Assembly: GCA_021783385.1 (NCBI GenBank)
Contig: JAJXTX010000050.1
Location: forward strand, 1-12,994
DNA from: Pseudomonadota bacterium
Lineage (GTDB): Bacteria; Pseudomonadota; Gammaproteobacteria; Xanthomonadales; Rhodanobacteraceae
Direction of reading: 5' to 3'
DNA: 12,994 nucleotides
Below the pieces are notes generated by a model. It ran no database searches, had not been told where the DNA came from, and saw nothing but the letters and a program-made list of their open reading frames with translations. A program made the translations under genes and the position numbers. Below are positions 2,588 to 12,994 of this stretch, in pieces. Numbering within the stretch: position 1 is the stretch's first letter; each line of letters begins with the position of its first letter.

Positions 2588-2673
2588 CCCGCGCACATGG
2601 GCCGGCTTGCGACGATGCGCTGCCGCCACCATGCTGGAAGCTGTCTCACCCACGCTGCGCCGACGGACAGACC

Positions 2674-3654
2674 ATGGACCGCTACGAACGCATCTTGACC
2701 CTGCACCGGCTGTTGAAGTCGGCGCACTATCCGGTGGCGCTGTCGCGCCTGATGGCCGAGCTGGAATGCTCGCGCGCCACGCTGTACCGCGACGTGGCGT
2801 TTCTGCGCGATGCGCTGGGCGCGCCGATCGAGAGCGCGGGCGGCGAACAGGCCGCCTTTCGCTACGCGCTGGGCGAGGGCGCGCGCTTCGAGCTGCCGGG
2901 GCTGTGGCTGACCTCCGACGAGCTGGCCGCGCTGCTGGCATTGAACGAGCTGATCAGCCGCTCCGGCCCGGGCGTGCTGGCCGGCGCGCTGGCCCCGTTC
3001 AAGGCGCGCATCGAGGGCCTGCTGTCCGACCACGGCAGCGGCAAGGCGCTGCCGATCGAGCGCATCCGGGTGATCCCGTGGGGCGAGCGCAAGCTCGACC
3101 AGCAGGTATTCCGCATCGTCGCCGGCGCCGTGCTGGAGCGCCGCCAGCTGCGCTTCCACTACCGCGCGCGCACCACCAACGCGGACAGCCGGCGCACGGT
3201 CTCGCCGCAGCGCCTGACCCACTACCGCGACAACTGGTACCTCGACGTGTGGGACCACGACCGCGAGGCGCTGCGCAGCTTTGCGGTGGATCGCATGAGC
3301 GACGCGCATGCGCTGGAGGCCGCCGCCATCGACGTCGGCGAGAGCGACCTCAACGAGCTGCTCGCCTCCAGCTACGGCATCTTCGCCGGCAAGCCGAAGG
3401 CATGGGCGACGATCCGCTTTTCCTCCCACGCCGCGCGCTGGGTGGCCGACGAGCACTGGCACTCGCAGCAGAAAGGCGAGTGGCTGGCCGACGGCCGCTA
3501 CGAATTGAAGTTGCCGTATTCCAACTCCAAGGAGTTGCTGATGGACGTGCTGAAGTACGGCCCGGATGCCGAAGTCGTGGCCCCGCTGCCGCTGCGCGAG
3601 GAAATGAAGATCCTGCTGCAGCTGGCGCTGTCGGGCTACGCCCGGCCTTCATGA
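2674..3654 (+). CDS. YafY-type transcriptional regulator with HTH and WYL domains
   Basis: The 326-residue protein begins MDRYERILTLHRLLKS, the usual start of the winged-helix YafY/DeoR-like domain. The recognition helix is around residues 33-45 (SRATLYRDVAFLR). The WYL domain spans about 140-210, with the motif itself at residues 188-190 in RDNWYLDVW. A WCX-like dimerisation segment follows to the end (SSHAARWVADEHW, then LPLREEMKILL). WYL domains usually sense a ligand such as nucleotides or nucleic acid ends. Some members control DNA-damage or defence genes, but many such YafY-type proteins have no known target. The frame is open upstream to 2581, but homologues begin at the MDRYERI position, so ATG 2674 is preferred. 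It is divergent from the DUF481 gene. No defence genes are adjacent here. Confidence 0.92.
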   Translation: MDRYERILTLHRLLKSAHYPVALSRLMAELECSRATLYRDVAFLRDALGAPIESAGGEQAAFRYALGEGARFELPGLWLTSDELAALLALNELISRSGPGVLAGALAPFKARIEGLLSDHGSGKALPIERIRVIPWGERKLDQQVFRIVAGAVLERRQLRFHYRARTTNADSRRTVSPQRLTHYRDNWYLDVWDHDREALRSFAVDRMSDAHALEAAAIDVGESDLNELLASSYGIFAGKPKAWATIRFSSHAARWVADEHWHSQQKGEWLADGRYELKLPYSNSKELLMDVLKYGPDAEVVAPLPLREEMKILLQLALSGYARPS

Positions 3655-3978: not shown

Positions 3979-4875
3979 TCAGGGGTTGCAGTGCGGGCAG
4001 TCGCCGGGGTCGGCATGGCTGCGACCATCGGGCCGGGGGCGATGCTCGCGATGGTCACACGCAACACAGCCAAAGATTTCGTGACGAACCAGCTGGCTGG
4101 GAAAGCCGCACCACTCGCAGGGCAAGCCGGTCTCGATATCCACCTGACCATAACCTGGCGTGCTGCAGCACGGGCAGCACGTCGCCGCTCGCCTGCACAG
4201 CTTTCGTGCAAGACGATCGATGACGGCCATGCGGGTCGGGTTCATATGGGCGCGCATGTCGGTCTGGACGAATGCCTGGCCATCTGAAGAACAGGCGGCG
4301 CATTCGGTGACGGCAGCGGCCAGGGCCCGTCGGCAGCGCAGGCCTTTGTATATCGGAAACGGCGGCGTCTTGAACGCATTCGGTTTCACGATCACGGCGT
4401 GCTGCGGAAAGTGGATACGATCAAGAAAAGTGCCGAACTCGCTGGAAGACGTCACGTCTGCATGTCGATAGACAGGCTCATCCTCCACCAGACACTCGGT
4501 GATGATGATGTCGCGCGTGTCATCGACAAGCACGATCATCTCGATGCCGCCTGCAACAAAAGGTATCCGTGGGTGCGGGCCATAGCTGCCCTCACTGGCG
4601 ACACCGATCGGCCGCCTCGTCATGGCCATGCCGAGGCGGGCCTTGGCGATGGCCGCCTCGCGCATGCTGCCAGCGCGCGGGATTTCTCCGGTGAAGGTGC
4701 CGAGCGAGTCGGTATCCAGGCCTGGCGGCACGTCAACGACCAGACCTAGCCCATCAAGCAACGCTGGTGCGATCGCCGCCTCCTTGCCGTGCATCGTGGC
4801 AGGTACGCCGCATTGCCCGGCATACGGACGGGCGCTGGGCTGACCACGGTCATCGCGTCGTTCTGGTCGTCGCAT
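3979..4875 (-). CDS. DUF6671 family protein with C-terminal zinc-ribbon cysteines
   Basis: The 298-residue protein matches the uncharacterised DUF6671 family as I remember it. Conserved stretches are ATMHGKEAAIAP (26-37), GLDTDSLGTFTGEIPR (52-67), KARLGM (78-83), GVASEGSYGPHP (91-102) and DMRAHMNPTRM (206-216). The C-terminal third carries paired cysteines: C192/C195, a CCPCC cluster at 233-237, C253/C256, C270/C273 and C293/C296. This is consistent with two zinc-binding ribbons. No signal peptide or membrane helix is seen, so it is probably cytoplasmic. The start ATG shares its A with the cysD stop (TGATG), and GGGAGGG at 4885-4891 is a good ribosome site, which fixes the start and implies translational coupling. 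The function is unknown. It is the last gene of the dabB-dabA-cysD operon. Confidence 0.85.
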   Translation of the reverse strand: MRRPERRDDRGQPSARPYAGQCGVPATMHGKEAAIAPALLDGLGLVVDVPPGLDTDSLGTFTGEIPRAGSMREAAIAKARLGMAMTRRPIGVASEGSYGPHPRIPFVAGGIEMIVLVDDTRDIIITECLVEDEPVYRHADVTSSSEFGTFLDRIHFPQHAVIVKPNAFKTPPFPIYKGLRCRRALAAAVTECAACSSDGQAFVQTDMRAHMNPTRMAVIDRLARKLCRRAATCCPCCSTPGYGQVDIETGLPCEWCGFPSQLVRHEIFGCVACDHREHRPRPDGRSHADPGDCPHCNP

Positions 4876-5771
4876 CAGAAGTAGCCCTCCCGCTTTTGCC
4901 GTTCGAGCGACCCGCGGTCACCGAGGCGACCGGCTCGCTCGGACGTCTGCGCGCCCCTTGTTGCCTGAACGACAGCGGGCAGGGTGTCGGCATGGGAAGC
5001 TTCCGCGGCAGTCACCGGCCAGCAGCCGAGGGTGCGGAATCGCACTTTCTCGAGGCGGGCCTGTTCGCCAGGAAGCCAGCGCATGCGCCGCGGGTCATCG
5101 ACCACAATGCGCAACCCTCCGCGCATCACCACCGGTCGTTCGCGTGCGAGATAAAGCGGCACCAGGTCGACCCCCCGTTGCAGGATCCAGTGCCAGAGAT
5201 CGTGCTCGGTCCAATTGGAAAGCGGGAATGCACGGATCGTTTCGCCCGGTGCCCGTTGCCAGTTGAAGCAGCGCCACAATTCGGGGCGTTGCGAACGAGG
5301 CTCCCAGCTCTGGCTCGCGCTGCGTACCGAAACGATACGCTCCTTGGCGCGGGTGGCCTCCTCGTCGCGCCGCGCACCACCGAAGATGACGTCGTAGCCA
5401 CCGTCACGCAGTGCCTGCTTGAGCGGCTCGGTACGCATCAGCGTGGTATAGACATCGCCATGGTCGAATGGATTGAGCGACTGCGCCCGCCCTTCCTCGT
5501 TGGCATGCACGAGCAGTCGAAAGCCATGTTGCCGCGCAAAGGCATCGCGGAATGCCAGCACATCAGCGAACTCCCAGGTCGAGTCGATATGCAGTAACGG
5601 CAGCGGCGGTGGCGAAGGGTAAAAGGCGCGCAGCGCCAGCTGCGCGAGCACGGTCGAGTCCTTGCCGCCGGAAAACAGCAGCACCGGATTTCTGGCCTCG
5701 GCCACCCCCTCACGCAGAATCTCGATCGCCTCGGCTTCGAGCGTTGCCAGATGGGCCGGCAGGTCACTCAT
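4875..5771 (-). CDS. cysD: Sulfate adenylyltransferase subunit 2 (CysD), PP-loop ATPase family
   Basis: The 298-residue protein aligns along its whole length with E. coli CysD (about 302 residues), the catalytic subunit that makes adenosine 5'-phosphosulfate from ATP and sulfate. Visible motifs are the PP-loop SGGKDS (34-39; E. coli has SIGKDS), [10 protein letters not shown] (59-68), GGARRDEE (131-138) with [17 protein letters not shown] (183-193), [11 protein letters not shown] (244-254), and the terminal [11 protein letters not shown]. The enzyme normally needs the GTPase partner CysN, which is absent from this window. The frame is open upstream to 6029, but the homology starts at [11 protein letters not shown] 5771 overlaps the dabA stop as ATGA, so that start is chosen. 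Placement inside a dab operon is unusual. A dedicated role distinct from cysteine biosynthesis is possible but inferred only. Confidence 0.93.
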
Positions 5772-8227
5772 GCCGGCATGGCCTCGGACAGCGGCGTGCT
5801 GGCTCCGGTGTCGGTCATCGACTGCCAGCACAGGTTTCCGGCATAACGCCACGCCATCCGGCCCTGCGCATCCAGCGCGAAGAGATGCATCCAGCGATGC
5901 TCGAACAGTGCGCGCAAACCGTCGTGGCGTTCGAGAATGTTGATGATCGCCTCGCGCGGTGCATCCACCAGCACCGACAGTCGCAGTGGCTGATGCATCA
6001 AACGCTCGCCGTCGTGCACCGATTGCCACGGCAGGCCGGCGCGCAGCAGGCCACCATTGCCTTCCACCACGCCGATGCCGCCAGTGACGTTGTGCAGCAG
6101 CTTGTTGCCCGCGCCGAACAGCTCCGGCGCCACGCTTGAGCCGTAATACTGCAGGCTGATCCAGCTGGCCACCACCACCGGCGCGGTGAGGATCGTTTCC
6201 AGTACGCCAAAGCCCGGATCCTGCTGCCAGTCGTAGTCGTGCAGGAAGGCCCGTCCGCCAAGGTCACGCATTGTCGTGCGACGACGCGGTGCGACGATGA
6301 AGCACTGGCAGCCCGCCAGCGCCCATTCGGGACGCACCTCGGACCAGTCCCTGGCCCGGCGTAGCACGTCGGCAGTCGTGGCGGCCCGCGGCAGGCGCAG
6401 CATGCGTTCGCCGCGGGCGAGTGATCCGGCGGCGTCAAACCAGCGCCGGGCCTGTGCGATGTCCTTCGCGTGGGTCGCCGTGCGATGGTCACGGTCATAC
6501 AGCGTGACGATGTCGGTGGTGGTGTGGTGCAGCGCGGCGACGAACAAGGTGTCTGGCGGGATCGCGATGCCACGCTCGGCGAGTCCTGCACGGACGGCCG
6601 CATCGTTGAGCAAACCGGCCATCAGTCGAGCGTTGACGTCGCCTGCGTTGCCGCCGCAGGCGCCGCAGTGCAACCCGGCGGCGTGCGGGTTGTTGACCAC
6701 ATCGGCGCCGTGGCCGGCAAGCACGACCAGGCGCGCAAAGCCACCTGTCAGCGACATCGCCCGCAGCGCGCCCTCGGCGATGGCAATGCGTGTGACCAGA
6801 TCGGGCACCGGTTCCAGCCGCGGTGCGGGATCCGTTGCCTGCACCTTGCGGCCCAGGGCGAGTCCATCGCGCACCAGCTTGCCGATATAAACCGGCCCGG
6901 TGGACTCGACGAAGGCGAATGATGAGATCGCGGCCAGCTTGAAACGACCCCATGCACGCGTTGCCCGCTTGCCGATGCGCACATCGTGATCATGTCTGGC
7001 GGTGGCATCATCGGTCTGACCCGTAGAGCTTTTCAGTTGGGCATGCATCAATACCGGAAGGCGCGCCTCCGGCACGTCCGATGCAAAACGCCGATGCGCC
7101 ACGCCGATGCCGAAAAAGCCGGCCAGTCCGAGAGTCCGTATGGAGGGATCGAGACCTTCCAGTGCGCGCCGAAACACCTCCGAACGCACGTCGATGCAGA
7201 ATGCCACCTGCAGCGAGGCGGGAGTGGGCGGTGGCATGGCTGCGTCGTGAGCCATCACGGCGGCGAGCTTTCTTTGCTCGGCGCGCTCACAGGCCTCCTG
7301 CAGGGTCATGTCGATGAGGTCGTCGGGTGTGGGGGCGAGCGGTTCGGCGCAGGCCCGGATCGCGTTGCGCCAGCGCGCCTCGATGCCCGACGCATACTGC
7401 TGGCAAAGGGCCACCTCCCATACCAGCCGGATCGCCAGCAGGTCGACGACGGTGGTGTCGTGGTCACCGGTCAGTCCGGCCTGCCATTGCCGGTAGCGGG
7501 CCATTTGCGGCCAGCCGCCAAGGCTGACCAGCAATCGGTGGAAGTAGCCCTCCAGCGCGGCATCGGCAAGACCCAGCGTGTGCGTGCATGCTTCGATGAC
7601 GTGTTCGGCAGCGTCGGGCAACTGCGCCACCCGATTGGCGAAGCCCCGCAAGCCGGCGATCTCCGGCGTAAGGTCAAGGCTGGCGACGGCGCGCCAGGCA
7701 TCATAGGCGCTGCGCGCCCTGGGAACGGCCCACAGTGCCTGGCCTTGGTCGAAGTAACCGGCGGCCCAGTGGCTGATGCGTGCGGTCACGATGGCAGGCC
7801 AATCGATGCCGCTCAGTTCGGCGGCGAGATCGGCCACGGTGACCAGCGCGGCGGGCACCGGGTGTTCCCGGGCCGCCATCGCCTTCAGTTGCCCCGGCGT
7901 ATCAACTCCAGAAATCTTCGGCACCGCTTTTATGGCGTCCGCAAGATCGGCGTCGCTGATGTCACCCGAACGGATGCGTTCGGCGTACCAGCGACGCGGC
8001 ATGGTGGTGCGCACGCCAGCCGCCCGGCCGAGTCGTGTCGCCGCCATCGCCAGCGATTCGCTGGTATGGCCCAGATAGGGATTGACGGCCACGCTGGCGG
8101 CCAATGGCCACAGCGGTGGAATGAGCAGGCTGGCGCGTCGGGCCGCTTCGCAGATACGTGGTGGAACGGGTGCGGCCAGATCGGTGGATGACATCAGCAT
8201 GGACTTGCTGCTCGTTGATTTGTTCAC
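5768..8227 (-). CDS. dabA: DabA (DUF2309/UPF0753), zinc subunit of an inorganic-carbon pump
   Basis: The 819-residue protein has the full length of the DUF2309 family. DabA is a beta-carbonic-anhydrase-like subunit that, with membrane partner DabB, is proposed to convert CO2 to bicarbonate vectorially in the cytoplasm using the cation gradient. The zinc-site residues are present: C344 and D346 in [11 protein letters not shown]506 in [10 protein letters not shown], and C521 in [10 protein letters not shown]. The H-to-C spacing of 15 residues equals that reported for the Halothiobacillus protein. Other family marks are [18 protein letters not shown] near the N-terminus and [17 protein letters not shown] with GLPWQSVHD near the C-terminus. 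The start is GTG at 8227, overlapping the dabB stop as GTGA. ATG codons at 8203 and 8197 are alternatives, and no strong ribosome site distinguishes them. It is followed by cysD with an ATGA overlap. Confidence 0.95.
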
Positions 8228-9795
8228 GACGGCTTGCGCGCGGACCAGCCGCCCAGCATCTGGTCCAGCACCGCGTTGATGTAGAAGCCGTTCGACAGAT
8301 GCACGCGCAGGCCCCGTGCCGCGGGGTGGTCAGCCCACAGCGGCAGCAGCGCCTGGGCCACCGCCACGGCGCCAAAGCTCAGGATCGCCAGCACCATCAG
8401 GGTCCATGCGAGTCGGTCCGGAGCCGGGGTGGTAGGCAACGTGCCGGCCGTCAGCCAGGCTGCGGTGACCTGCAGCGAGAAGTAGCCGATCGCCGCCGCG
8501 GCGGAATACACGATGGTCTTGCCGGTCAGGGCGCGCGGTGCCCCGTCGGCCAGCCCCTGCGCCAGCAGATAGGCGACACCGAAGATCAGGATCGCGCCCA
8601 GCGCCAGCGCCTGTGGCGATTCGTGTTGCAGCCCGAAAACCAGACCGAAGCTCGTGCCGATCACGGCATAGATGGCGAGCGCCAGGAAGAAGGCACGGCC
8701 GACCGCCGTACCATCAGGCACCGCCACCGGCCCCGGTTGCCGGGTGGAGACGACCTCCTCCACCGCACCGCCGGAGGCGAGGAAGGCGTGCGCCTTGTAC
8801 AGCGAGTGCGCCACGATGTGCAGCAGTGCCAGCGGGAAAAGCGCCAGCCCGCATTGCAATGTCATGAAGCCCATCTGCGCCACGGTCGACCAGGCCAGCG
8901 AGGTCTTCACCGCTGGCTGCGTCAGCATCACCAGCGCACCAAAGATCGCCGTGAAGCCGCCCACCATCGCCAGCAGCGCCAGCACCCCAGGCGCCAGCAA
9001 CATGACGTCGGCGAAGCGGATCAGCAAAAAGCCGCCGCCGTTGATCACGCCCGCATGCAGCAGGGCGGACACCGGCGTGGGCGCCTCCATCACTTCGGTC
9101 AGCCAGCCGTGGGTGGGAAACTGTGCGGACTTCAGCAGCGCGGCCAGCGCCAGGGCGGCCGCGGCGAACCCGATCATGCCCGACGCCTCACCAACGCGGG
9201 CCGCGGCATTGATTTTGGCGATGTCGGTGCTGCCGTAGGCGAAGGCGAGCATGCCGGTCGCAGCGATCAGTGCTGCCGCACCCAGGGTCGAAAATAGTTG
9301 CTTCTTGCGCGCCGCGCGCCGCGCGGCTTCCCGCCCGGCATAGAACAACAGCAGTCGGTGCAGCGCGATGCTGGTCCCGATCCAGGCCACCACCAGTTGC
9401 ACCAGGTTGCCTGCTGCCACCAGCAGCAGCACGGCGGCCAGGGTAGCGCAGAGCCAGCCGGTGAAGGCGCCCTGCCGAGCCTCGCCATCCAGGTAGGTGC
9501 TCGTGTAACGCACCACGATCCAGCCGACGAAGCTGACCAGCAGCAGCATGCTCGCACTCACCGCATCGAGTCGTGCCGATAATCCGACCCCAGCCATGCC
9601 GATAAGCCTGCTCTCGCCCACTCCCCGCGCGATCAGCAGGACAAGTGCCAACAGCGAAACCAGCAGCGCCAGCATGGCGCAAGCCTCGGCGAGCTTCGGC
9701 ATCCACCGCGGACGCCGTTCCGCGCAAAACGCGCACAGGATCGCGATGAGGAACAGCGGTAGTGGTGCCGCCAGGGGTAACAGATAGGGCGACAA
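8224..9795 (-). CDS. dabB: DabB, NuoL/Mrp-like proton-conducting membrane subunit
   Basis: The 523-residue polytopic membrane protein belongs to the NADH-quinone oxidoreductase subunit 5/MrpA antiporter family. It has the signature [11 protein letters not shown] (222-232) and [18 protein letters not shown] (237-254), which carry the conserved Lys, Glu and His residues of the ion pathway. No other Nuo genes are present, and dabA follows immediately, so this is DabB (MpsA-like), which couples ion flow to CO2 hydration. Hydrophobic helices begin at residue 4 and continue throughout. The upstream frame is open to 9969, but the extra 58 residues are non-family. TTG 9795 has an AGGAG ribosome site seven bases away and gives [14 protein letters not shown] (first residue read as Met), the natural first helix. 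It is the first gene of the operon, 60 bp downstream of a LysR-type composite element. Confidence 0.93.
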
Positions 9796-9855: not shown

Positions 9856-9895
9856 AAATTCATTGTTTGTTATTTTTGGTTCGCTAAAATCGAAC
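9856..9895. promoter_or_regulatory. Composite LysR-type element upstream of dabB (copy 1)
   Basis: Block A, AAATTCATTGTTTG (9856-9869), is followed by ten variable bases and then block B, TTCGCTAAAATCGAAC (9880-9895). The same two blocks with the same spacing occur at 11388-11427, differing by one base in the thirty conserved positions. Block B contains the palindrome TTCG-N7-CGAA with T-N11-A geometry, the usual LysR half-site pattern. Its edge is 60 bp upstream of the dabB TTG, a suitable place for activation. Binding by the nearby LysR protein is inferred. Confidence 0.7.
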
Positions 9896-10208: not shown

Positions 10209-11219
10209 CTACCGTTGGCGCGCTGCGGCAAACGCGCGCCCGTCACCGAGCCCTGCTGCGCGCACCAGGCGGTCGCACAGTGCGGCACCCAGGCCTTCGT
10301 CCAGTGGCGGCACGGCGACGAGTACATCCAGACCCAGGTCGTCGGCCTGCCGCAGCAGGGCGTACAACTGTTGCGCTTGCTGTTCGCTGGCTGTGCCCAG
10401 CGACAACCACGGCACGCCCGGAGGCAGGTTTTCTGGCCGGCACGCTGAAAGCAGACCGGCGCGAGCGCCGTTCCGATGCCATGTCTCCAGGGCTGCCAAC
10501 GCGTCCTCGGCTGCTGTCAGCACCACCCTGGCGCGCGGTGCATAGTGCGATGTCATCGCGCCGGGGCGGCGCACAGCGGGGTCCGCACGGTCGAGCACGG
10601 TACCTCCGGTCACGCGCCGCAGGTCCTGCGAGGTGATGCCACCGGGCCGCAGGATACGCATGCCCTCGTCAACAAAATCCACGATGGTCGATTCGACACC
10701 TATGCGGCAAGGACCGCCATCGAGCAACAAGTCAACGGCGTCACCAAGCTCCGACTGGACATGCCGTGCCGTGGTGGGGCTGACCCGGCCGTGGCGATTG
10801 GCTGACGGCGCGGCGACGCCGCCGCCGAACTGCGCCAGCAGGTCCAACGCCAGCGGATGTGATGGAACGCGCAGGGCCACCGTGTCCAGCCCACCCGTGA
10901 CGACGTCAAGCACGCCCGGCACGCGTGGCAGAACCAGGGTCAGCGGGCCGGGCCAGAAGGCTTCGGCCAGCTGCCACGCGGCGGTCGGCACCTCGCGCGC
11001 CCACTGCCTGATTTGCGCCGGCCGGTGAATATGCACGATTAACGGATGATCGGCCGGCCGCTGCTTGGCCGAAAAAATTCGTGCCACCGCCTGCGCGCTG
11101 CCGGCATCGGCGCCCAGACCGTAGACCGTCTCGGTAGGCAGGCCGACCAGGCCGCCGTCGCGCAATACCTGGGCTGCGCGCGCGGCATCGGTGGTCAGTC
11201 TGGCGTCGGCGTTGCTCAT
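10209..11219 (-). CDS. sua5: L-threonylcarbamoyladenylate synthase, Sua5 type
   Basis: The 336-residue protein makes threonylcarbamoyl-AMP from threonine, bicarbonate and ATP, the first step of the universal tRNA t6A37 modification. The N-terminal YrdC/TsaC domain (about 10-200) shows LPTETVYGLGADA (27-39), KQRPADHPL (52-60), WPGPLTLVLP (89-98), LRVPSHP (116-122) and APSANRHGRVSPT (137-149). The linker motif RPGAMTSHYAPRA (218-230) and a C-terminal Rossmann-like domain mark it as the long Sua5 form, not the short TsaC. ATG 11219 is preceded by GGAAG at a good distance. The upstream open frame to 11444 lacks homology and crosses the lysR regulatory region. It lies between the dab operon and lysR, in the dab direction but 413 bp from dabB, so probably a separate unit. 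Its use of bicarbonate as substrate may make the neighbourhood more than chance. Confidence 0.95.
   Translation of the reverse strand: MSNADARLTTDAARAAQVLRDGGLVGLPTETVYGLGADAGSAQAVARIFSAKQRPADHPLIVHIHRPAQIRQWAREVPTAAWQLAEAFWPGPLTLVLPRVPGVLDVVTGGLDTVALRVPSHPLALDLLAQFGGGVAAPSANRHGRVSPTTARHVQSELGDAVDLLLDGGPCRIGVESTIVDFVDEGMRILRPGGITSQDLRRVTGGTVLDRADPAVRRPGAMTSHYAPRARVVLTAAEDALAALETWHRNGARAGLLSACRPENLPPGVPWLSLGTASEQQAQQLYALLRQADDLGLDVLVAVPPLDEGLGAALCDRLVRAAGLGDGRAFAAARQR
10443..10459. repeat. 17-bp exact repeat, copy inside sua5
   Basis: CGCTGAAAGCAGACCGG here is repeated exactly at 11303-11319. This copy lies in the C-terminal coding part of sua5 (minus strand, encoding part of AGLLSACRP). The flanking bases differ at once on both sides. 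An exact 17-mer is unlikely by chance in 13 kb, but its meaning is unknown. Confidence 0.55.
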
Positions 11220-11387: not shown

Positions 11388-11427
11388 AAATTCATTGTTT
11401 GATGGAAATGATTCGTTAAAATCGAAC
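11388..11427. promoter_or_regulatory. Composite LysR-type element abutting the lysR start (copy 2)
   Basis: AAATTCATTGTTTG (11388-11401), ten variable bases, then TTCGTTAAAATCGAAC (11412-11427) repeats the element found upstream of dabB. On the plus strand it also contains a promoter-like pair: TTGTTT (11395-11400), sixteen bases, TAAAAT (11417-11422). Its right edge is three bases before the lysR ATG, so the regulator bound here would cover its own promoter and start. This would suit autoregulation. Confidence 0.7.
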
Positions 11428-11430
11428 TGT

Positions 11431-12321
11431 ATGAGTGCTCTCAATTACAACCATCTGCGTTACTTTTGGGCCGTCGCGCATGAGGGCAATCTGACCCGAA
11501 CAGCGGCACGACTGCACCTGACGCAGTCGGCCTTGTCGGTGCAGATCCGCAAGCTGGAAGAGCAGCTCGGCCACCCGCTGTTCGAGCGGCGTGGACGACA
11601 ATTGCACCTCACCGAAGTGGGCCGAATCACGCTCGATCATGCGGACGCCATCTTCGCCAGCGGTGAGGAGTTGCTGGGAACCTTGCGTGATGCCGGTGCC
11701 AGCCGGCGGCCGCTGAGGCTTGGTGCCCTGGCTACGCTCTCGCGCAACTTCCAGATGGAATTTTTGCAGCCGGTGCTCGGGCGCCCCGACATCGAGATCA
11801 TCGTGCGCTCGGGCAATACCGCCGACCTGCTGGGCTCGTTGCAATCCTTGAGTCTGGACATCGTGCTGATCAATCAGCCCCCGGCGCGCGATGCACTCAA
11901 GCCGCTGGTTTCCCATCGCCTGGCCGAAAGGCCGGTGAGCCTCATCGGAACCCCGGAACGTTTCCGCAAACCGTGCAGCCTGGCAGAACGACTCAGAGAC
12001 CATCCGGTCATTCTGCCGACGCGGGAGACGAGTATCCGGATCGGCTTTGATGCCTTGATGAACCAGCTCGGCGTTCGTCCGCATATCGTGGCCGAGGTCG
12101 ACGACATGGCCATGCTGCGACTGCTGGCACGTGAAGACATCGGGCTGGCCGTATTGCCGTCGATTGTCGTGAAAGATGAGATCACGGCAGGCTCGCTGGT
12201 CGAGGGCGATCCACTGAAAGGGATCACTGAGACCTTTTACGCGGTCACGTTGGATCGCCGTTTCCCCAACCCTGTGCTGAGGGAACTTATTCGTCATGAG
12301 AAAGCGCTTTCAAGACACTGA
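11431..12321 (+). CDS. LysR-family transcriptional regulator, NhaR-like
   Basis: The 296-residue protein starts MSALNYNHLRYFWAVAHEGN, close to the N-terminus of NhaR-type LysR proteins (compare NYNHLYYFW in E. coli NhaR). The helix-turn-helix covers about 20-60 (LTRTAARLHLTQSALSVQIRKLEEQLGHPLFER). The effector domain runs from about residue 90 to 290, with RPLRLGALATLSRNF and LLAREDIGLAVLP as typical segments. ATG 11431 is chosen because homology begins there. The frame extends to a TTG at 11395, but this would run through the operator-like element. No Shine-Dalgarno sequence precedes the ATG, and a -10-like TAAAAT ends eight bases before it, so the mRNA may be leaderless. The shared element upstream of dabB makes it the likely activator of the dab operon. 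NhaR-like proteins can respond to sodium or pH, which would fit an ion-driven pump, but the signal is not known here. Confidence 0.93.
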   Translation: MSALNYNHLRYFWAVAHEGNLTRTAARLHLTQSALSVQIRKLEEQLGHPLFERRGRQLHLTEVGRITLDHADAIFASGEELLGTLRDAGASRRPLRLGALATLSRNFQMEFLQPVLGRPDIEIIVRSGNTADLLGSLQSLSLDIVLINQPPARDALKPLVSHRLAERPVSLIGTPERFRKPCSLAERLRDHPVILPTRETSIRIGFDALMNQLGVRPHIVAEVDDMAMLRLLAREDIGLAVLPSIVVKDEITAGSLVEGDPLKGITETFYAVTLDRRFPNPVLRELIRHEKALSRH

Positions 12322-12497: not shown

Positions 12498-12994
12498 TCA
12501 CCGCCCCACCGCCCGAAACGGCCAGAAGTGCGGGATCAGCCACATCGACAGCGCGCAGAAGATGGCGATCAGCGGAATGCCGACCTTCATGAAATCGGTG
12601 AAGCGGTAGCCGCCGGCGTAATACACCATGGTGTTGGTGGGGTAGCCCACCGGAGTGGCGAACGAGGTGGCCGCAGCGAACGCCACCGCCACCACGAACG
12701 GGCGCGCATCGGCGTGCGCCGCGTGTGCCACGGTCACCGCGATGCCGACCATCAGCACCACCGACGGGTTGTGCCCCATCAGCTCGGTGAGCAGTGCCGT
12801 CAGCAGGTACACCATCAGCAGCGCGGCCAGCGGTCCGTGGCCGCCGACCAGCCGCATCGCACCCCCCACCACCACCGTCGACAGGCCGGTGTGCTCGATC
12901 GCCAGGCCCAGCGGCAGGATCGCGCCGAGCAGCACGATGATCTTCCAGTCCATGCTTTCGTAGACGTCCTTGCGGCCGAAGCAGCCGGTCAGCG
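12498..12994 (-). CDS. SLC13-family permease, C-terminal part (partial)
   Basis: The frame is open from the right window edge to TGA at 12498, giving about 165 residues. It begins LTGCFGRKDVYESMDWKIIVLLGAILPLG, matching the inner region of SLC13/ArsB-type permeases after the regulatory domain. It ends with the family signature SFATPVGYPTNTMVY followed by GGYRFTDFMKVGIPL and a last helix, LIAIFCALSMWLIPHFWPF. At least four membrane helices are visible. Family members carry sulfate, dicarboxylates or other anions with sodium or protons. The substrate cannot be read from this part. The apparent internal ATG at 12953 is not the start. It is convergent with lysR, so not part of the dab operon, though a sulfate permease near cysD would be notable. 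Confidence 0.87.
   Translation of the reverse strand, partial: LTGCFGRKDVYESMDWKIIVLLGAILPLGLAIEHTGLSTVVVGGAMRLVGGHGPLAALLMVYLLTALLTELMGHNPSVVLMVGIAVTVAHAAHADARPFVVAVAFAAATSFATPVGYPTNTMVYYAGGYRFTDFMKVGIPLIAIFCALSMWLIPHFWPFRAVGR

Follow-up and report, generated by a model that had tools for sequence, protein, structure and literature searches.

A putative low-CO2 CysD in a LysR-flanked inorganic-carbon cassette of Rhodanobacteraceae, and DUF6671 as candidate marker of related cassettes

Described systems and the Rhodanobacteraceae locus

The Zur regulon provides zinc-independent paralogues under zinc starvation. By analogy, the same logic, in which an importer is combined with back-up versions of the enzymes that depend on the ligand in short supply, may apply to a locus of Rhodanobacteraceae that encodes DabB, DabA, CysD and a DUF6671 protein; its ligand would be CO2/bicarbonate and its regulator LysR-type. 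The locus is located on contig JAJXTX010000050.1 of assembly GCA_021783385.1 (80% complete, 377 contigs). The whole stretch analysed, 12,994 nt, is referred to as the window. On balance, the window is best read as a LysR-flanked inorganic-carbon-starvation cassette whose CysD would be a low-CO2 isozyme. This reading is based on gene order, recurrence in separate lineages, second CysD copies, a missing neighbour CysN and a recurrent Lys-to-Glu exchange, all of them taken from sequence. The finding is stronger than the initial annotation of this DNA, because it is repeated in separate lineages and has a testable single-residue signature.

The closest described systems are the DAB (DabAB) and MpsAB complexes, with which the window shares DabB, DabA with its zinc-site motif and an adjacent LysR gene. 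DabB (PF00361) and DabA (PF10070) are encoded side by side and the zinc site is present, both as in DAB pumps; energy-coupled uptake of inorganic carbon is predicted. The motifs of this site, Cys2His and an Asp-Arg dyad, are C344-x-D346-x-R348, H506 and C521 (motif check, not aligned to DabA2), and they correspond to the residues of the DAB2 zinc site as named in passages of PMC13144422. These passages do not mention the companions CysD, Sua5 and DUF6671 that are present in the window. A word search of an open-access library yielded no paper on dabA, dabB and cysD together in an operon. Compared to CysDN (1ZUN), the window CysD is alike over residues 3-298 (1zun_A, E 1.9e-92) and differs by the lack of a neighbouring CysN and by Glu instead of Lys87; formation of adenosine 5'-phosphosulfate is predicted. 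It scores above the NCBIfam cut-off of NF003587 (364.6 vs 195) and below the stricter ones of NF009214 (388.4 vs 413) and TIGR02039 (373.7 vs 396.6). This protein is not filed here as a canonical CysDN subunit but as a CysD paralogue that may have a CysDN-like function. The window protein related to Sua5/TsaC has both the YrdC and the Sua5 C-terminal domain.

The four overlapping genes described initially (dabB, dabA, cysD and the DUF6671 gene, with stop/start overlaps GTGA, ATGA and TGATG) are confirmed by coordinates, Pfam and NCBIfam. The unit is, however, larger than four genes, since sua5 and the divergent lysR belong to it. The proposed carbon-sulfur fusion has been revised to one case of a wider DUF6671-marked inorganic-carbon cassette. 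In the mechanism we envisage, DabAB would accumulate bicarbonate, and Sua5 would be a backup for the bicarbonate-hungry first step of N6-threonylcarbamoyladenosine (t6A) tRNA modification. For t6A synthesis by human enzymes, a bicarbonate Km of 31 mM is given in a passage of PMC5951830. The CysN-less CysD would replace the ordinary CysD under CO2 scarcity, probably with a CysN encoded elsewhere. In a bolder reading, Lys87 of ordinary CysD would be carboxylated by CO2, and Glu would provide the same charge without CO2. The cassette as a whole would combine an importer with spare bicarbonate-consuming and CO2-sensitive enzymes, probably under LysR control. What we infer here is that the cassette is expressed at low CO2, that CysN is shared, that sulfate is still adenylylated and why Lys was exchanged for Glu.

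In 149 relatives, the genome of the window counted, DUF6671 matches were found in 12 (two weak) and DabA in 13. Outside the window there are 11 DUF6671 matches, of which nine were fetched, the weak ones (G059, G109) being left out; locus L026 is apparently the same contig as L017. LysR, dabB, dabA, cysD and DUF6671 occur together in eight of these nine loci, and L024 has DUF6671 without dab. The cysD-DUF6671 pair lies at the dab locus in 9/13 DabA genomes and, in addition, on Mesorhizobium plasmids and in other families, so the gene order is not confined to one strain. One cassette, otherwise complete, carries a shortened DUF6671 gene that lacks part of the domain (L025:451-1068, genome G036).

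The place of Sua5 varies. It is encoded upstream of dabB in three cases (the window, L017, L018) and between dabA and cysD in another three (L020, L023, L025); in G047, G072 and G087, it is found outside the dab locus. In one family (f1), the Sua5 C-terminal domain was found in 11/11 DabA carriers and two other genomes (G068, G085; Fisher's test 2e-12 to 7e-12, with f1 assumed to comprise 80-90 genomes and relatedness ignored). YrdC-domain genes were counted in 18 genomes: There are two in each of 12 DAB genomes besides that of the window, one in each of four hand-picked DAB-free members of the genus, one in G085 and one found in the incomplete window genome.

Orphan CysD copies and residue 87

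The CysD comparison covered the relatives, a phylum sample and seven genomes from a collection. One copy adjoins DabA, DabB or DUF6671 in 18 genomes, and DUF6671 is found in the same small locus in 17 of them. CysN was detected beside none of these 18 linked copies (up to 1.5 kb per side). The missing CysN of the initial annotation thus holds, as none is present among the open reading frames and Pfam families of the window either. All 18 genomes contain another CysD, with CysN beside it in 17; consequently, the window CysD is not a sole copy. The exception is the window genome itself, whose second CysD (on C238) is cut by the contig end. Its CysN (on C357) is also contig-cut and continues into a stretch that resembles CysC by eye. 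Altogether, 29 CysN-linked CysD copies were found. Three further copies have no CysN, DAB or DUF6671 neighbour; one is from G331, the other two are from Methylocystis rosea. All three adjoin a gene at least 86% identical to its M. rosea homologue, a plasmid relative of which is annotated as crotonyl-CoA carboxylase/reductase.

Trees were calculated without L154 (partial) and L262 (fragment), the first one also without L082 and L083. The dab-linked CysDs are separate from the CysN-linked ones, as had been considered at the outset. A single clade of the 18 linked copies was rejected (approximately unbiased test, p-AU 2e-6). In Schlesneria, the orphan CysD is sister to the CysN-linked copy of its own genome (267/296 residues identical). 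A neighbourhood that arose by chance or hitch-hiking on mobile DNA would fit the patchy distribution in the genus (12/149 relatives) and the presence of DUF6671 on 12 plasmid records. It is nevertheless very improbable, as CysD was duplicated separately in unrelated lineages and the extra copies came to lie next to the same genes, a recurrence that already contradicts it.

The residue alignment was assessed at 146 columns in which 27 CysN-linked CysDs are at least 92% uniform; the long-branch L261 had been dropped beforehand. Only one of the 146 differs in every one of the six orphan groups, namely the position of Lys87 in 1ZUN (residue 67 of the window CysD), which is Glu. Lys is present in 29/29 CysN-linked rows and Glu in 21/21 orphans. 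The catalytic motifs initially described as all intact are therefore not quite so; the catalytic PP-loop is retained in orphan CysD, whereas the window protein carries Glu67 at the position where CysDN has Lys. In a tree built without column 87 (L254 also dropped), the Glu label requires four changes, forced by well-supported branches. These would be four gains of Glu if Lys is ancestral. A single origin of Glu87 was rejected (p-AU 2e-6). Under a random-change model for four lineages with the observed column numbers, any column was shared in 0.33% of draws, residue identity aside. The 120 database homologues closest to the window CysD, mostly from its own clade and with no context given, all have Glu, and the 120 closest to a CysN-linked profile, a set of low diversity (sampled pairs are alike to at least 75%), all have Lys. 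Seven plasmid CysD copies were inspected from 354 records with a CysD match: All three without an annotated CysN neighbour have Glu, and all four with CysN have Lys.

The exchange points to a carboxylated Lys87 in ordinary CysD, with Glu as its mimic. In the amidohydrolase superfamily, a carboxylated lysine is likewise exchanged for Glu. A plain second CysD for extra sulfate activation, co-regulated with carbon uptake and with a neutral or partner-related Glu, would agree with the ordinary CysD and CysN elsewhere in these genomes and with the kept PP-loop. We consider it improbable. It does not account for the same residue at the same column in at least four separate changes or for the uniform Glu and Lys of the two sets of near homologues. 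Likewise, the simple carbon and sulfur co-regulation proposed initially leaves the recurrent exchange unexplained.

DUF6671 and genes of inorganic-carbon metabolism

DUF6671 is most likely a marker of wider inorganic-carbon cassettes (DabAB, SbtA, Sua5, PyrC, IlvD, PurEK, Mur ligases) across phyla, judging from its gene neighbourhoods. In a scan of a genome collection, the best 80 of at least 572 confirmed DUF6671 loci, from many phyla, were analysed. Within 8 kb of DUF6671, DabA is encoded in 34/80, SbtA in 12/80 and either of them in 46/80. Sua5, PurK, PurE or carboxyltransferase was found in 17/80, and PyrC, IlvD or a Mur/FolC-type ligase in 21/80. Any importer, bicarbonate user or member of a carbamylated-lysine family is present in 59/80. 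CmpC-like ABC matches (16/80 loci) were not counted, as nitrate and bicarbonate types are indistinct. MurF and FolC have a lysine carbamylated by CO2. The same is described for dihydroorotase (PyrC) in the abstract of PMC8659124, for IlvD/EDD in passages of PMC5770437 and for MurE and MurD in passages of PMC3829189.

Counts within 3 kb of DUF6671 were compared with those beyond 5 kb (p-values ignore relatedness and multiple testing). The near-to-far ratio is 28:0 for DabA, 13:0 for PyrC (p 1.9e-5), 9:0 for SbtA (5.5e-4), 7:1 for CysD (0.014), 5:0 for PurK (0.015), 4:0 for IlvD (0.035), 7:1 for isocitrate dehydrogenase (0.014) and 4:0 for each of two Mur-type queries (0.035). LysR, the control, yielded 3:3, and the CmpC-like query was not significant (13:8).

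A phylum sample of 398 genomes contains DabA in 69 and DUF6671 in nine, eight of them above the cut-off; 40 stretches were drawn from this sample, not from every DabA genome. DabA lies within 1.3 kb of DUF6671 in 5/8. Of the other three, G295 has an adjoining SbtA, G284 a CmpC-like gene and G374 none of the queries. The surroundings of DUF6671 were read in 11 of the 12 plasmid records, and all 11 have DabAB, SbtA or bicarbonate-using/carbamylated-lysine enzymes beside it. DabAB was found in 7/11, accompanied by a carbonic anhydrase in Mycolicibacterium, Sua5 in Nocardia, IlvD in Fuscovulum and CysD at the two Mesorhizobium loci. On two Arthrobacter plasmids, SbtA is adjacent, on one of them with IlvD. 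On the Methylocystis rosea plasmid, DUF6671 is accompanied by IlvD, PyrC and a subunit of an acyl-CoA carboxylase, and on that of Pseudomonas hygromyciniae by PyrC, followed by IlvD, Sua5 and MurF-like matches.

Other genes recur near DUF6671, too. Isocitrate dehydrogenase with the bacterial C-terminal domain is encoded in 9/80 loci (e.g. L068:3169-4641). A flavodiiron-like protein with beta-lactamase, flavodoxin and flavin-reductase domains was found at L093:12665-14665 and in eight other cyanobacterial loci; flavodiiron-type genes are induced at low CO2. Actinomycetota and a Pseudomonas plasmid repeatedly encode TerC-family membrane proteins next to DUF6671 (L089:10949-11968, L268, L272). 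In a metagenome-assembled genome of the cyanobacterial line, a CysD-like gene lies between two DUF6671 genes and adjoins DabAB (L082:4875-7604).

Pfam gives no function for DUF6671, and no paper on it was found by word search of an open-access library. For alignment, 77 of the 80 loci passed the filter, and 76 were aligned, with the window protein and 10 others added. The structure model of the window protein (pLDDT 91.6) predicts a fold of the ITPase/RdgB/YjjX/HAM1-like, NTP-pyrophosphatase type, to which four zinc-ribbon-like CxxC pairs are added. The model agrees with the fold of the ITPase/YjjX/Maf superfamily. The protein differs from RdgB, YjjX and HAM1 by an identity of only ~10-18%, by the four extra CxxC pairs and by its linkage to inorganic-carbon genes; hydrolysis of NTP to NMP and PPi is a candidate activity. 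The conserved T-x-H-G-K stretch only loosely resembles T-x-N-x-x-K, which we take to be the motif of the ITPase superfamily. A PDB sequence search yielded no relative (best E 0.1), and the C-terminal part alone, modelled with pLDDT 93.9, gave a best Foldseek E of 0.48, so that no fold was assigned to it.

This putative nucleotide-enzyme fold bears on another explanation. The orphan CysD, perhaps with DUF6671 replacing CysN, might have been repurposed to adenylate a substrate other than sulfate, and Glu would remove an anion-binding lysine. The constant absence of CysN beside linked copies, the frequent presence of DUF6671 in the same small locus and several changed columns close to the PP-loop (1ZUN residues 50-55 and 84-91) point in this direction. 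By contrast, the CysD similarity is full-length, and near-invariant columns are kept in at least one row at 127 to 142 of 146 positions in four of five proteobacterial/planctomycete groups and at 124 in the fifth. Furthermore, 72/80 DUF6671 loci contain no CysD, and a Glu-type CysD occurs in G464 and G331, for which no DUF6671 match is listed. These two genomes counter DUF6671 as a needed partner; they do not counter a new substrate. The repurposed adenylating enzyme, one of the initial hypotheses, is hence a live rival that we regard as unlikely, and its version with an obligatory DUF6671 partner has been dropped.

Several observations weigh against the cassette with a low-CO2 CysD. Four of the 13 DabA relatives lack the pair at the locus (G033, G074, G111, G119). 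In the phylum sample, DUF6671 is unmatched in 64/69 DabA genomes, so DAB without CysD/DUF6671 is common. None of the counted genes lies near DUF6671 in 21/80 loci, some on short contigs, and the near-to-far ratios of Sua5 (3:1) and carboxyltransferase (4:1) are not significant. The pairing of Sua5 with DAB is limited to f1, because outside f1 the Sua5 C-terminal domain was found in 30 genomes of the order sample and DabA in two. The carbamylated lysine is retained by island PyrC in 17/17 readable rows and by IlvD in 4/4, which rules out a general lysine-to-Glu exchange in island enzymes. Mur/FolC-type island ligases appear by eye to retain it as well, at what we take to be the site. A word search of an open-access library gave no report of a carboxylated lysine in CysD, and we know of no reason for sulfate activation to need CO2. 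The most far-reaching version, in which ordinary CysD would depend on CO2 via a carboxylated Lys87, a Glu-mimic CysD would have been recruited at least four times and DUF6671 would mark widespread CO2-starvation cassettes, is accordingly put forward only tentatively.

Cassette layout, regulator and implications

The features of the window are summarized in Table 1. The gene lysR adjoins dabB in L017-L023, L025 and L127-L130. The palindrome TTCG-N7-CGAA, a pattern picked after the sequence had been read, occurs twice in the window vs 0.23 expected, and at least two copies were obtained in 3/200 shuffles. Relative G033 (L127) has it at the same two places, and L017, L018, L027 and L199 have one copy directly before lysR. 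Over all scanned loci (2278 kb), 99 exact palindromes were found, and nine of them lie within 400 bases upstream of lysR, regions that add up to 23.6 kb. In most other loci, including L019-L023 and L025, no exact copy was found upstream of lysR.

Table 1. Features of the window with position, strand and evidence
Feature	Position	Strand	Evidence
DabB, proton-antiporter-like membrane subunit	8224..9795	-	PF00361 124.8 bits, PF00662; TTG start, AGGAG upstream
DabA, cytoplasmic beta-CA-like subunit	5768..8227	-	PF10070 854.5 bits
CysD-like adenylyltransferase subunit without CysN	4875..5771	-	PF01507 150.6 bits; 1zun_A match
Codon of CysD Glu67, replacing Lys87 of 1ZUN	5571..5573	-	residue alignment
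DUF6671 protein: ITPase-like domain (predicted) ~residues 20-233, four CxxC pairs 234-296	3979..4875	-	PF20376 171.1 bits; structure model
Sua5 threonylcarbamoyl-AMP synthase	10209..11219	-	PF01300, PF03481; TIGR00057 190.4 bits vs cut-off 123.2
LysR-type regulator, divergent from operon	11428..12321	+	PF00126, PF03466; nearest NCBIfam NhaR, below cut-off
Palindrome TTCG-N7-CGAA, possible LysR site, between lysR and sua5	11412..11426	.	pattern scan
Palindrome TTCG-N7-CGAA, second copy, ~85 bases upstream of dabB	9880..9894	.	pattern scan

Downstream of DUF6671, a WYL-domain regulator is encoded on the opposite strand (2671-3654, +); related WYL models exist in PADLOC. It shows no sign of cassette membership. 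The C-terminal part of a DASS/CitMHS-type anion transporter (12498-12953, -; PF03600 61.7 bits, PF00939 32 bits) runs off the contig end. None of the 133 fetched loci gave a match to the outer genes (DASS fragment, WYL, phosphodiesterase, DUF481). A defence role was rejected: PADLOC gave only a weak match for CysD (BrxP, E 0.0024), and DUF6671, DabA and DabB remained without a match.

With DUF6671 linked to inorganic carbon, such cassettes could be searched for in many phyla, and the enzymes whose function is lost on CO2 exhaustion could be catalogued. In addition, the Lys/Glu rule makes an operon association testable at a single residue and would allow the question to be addressed whether sulfate activation depends on CO2.

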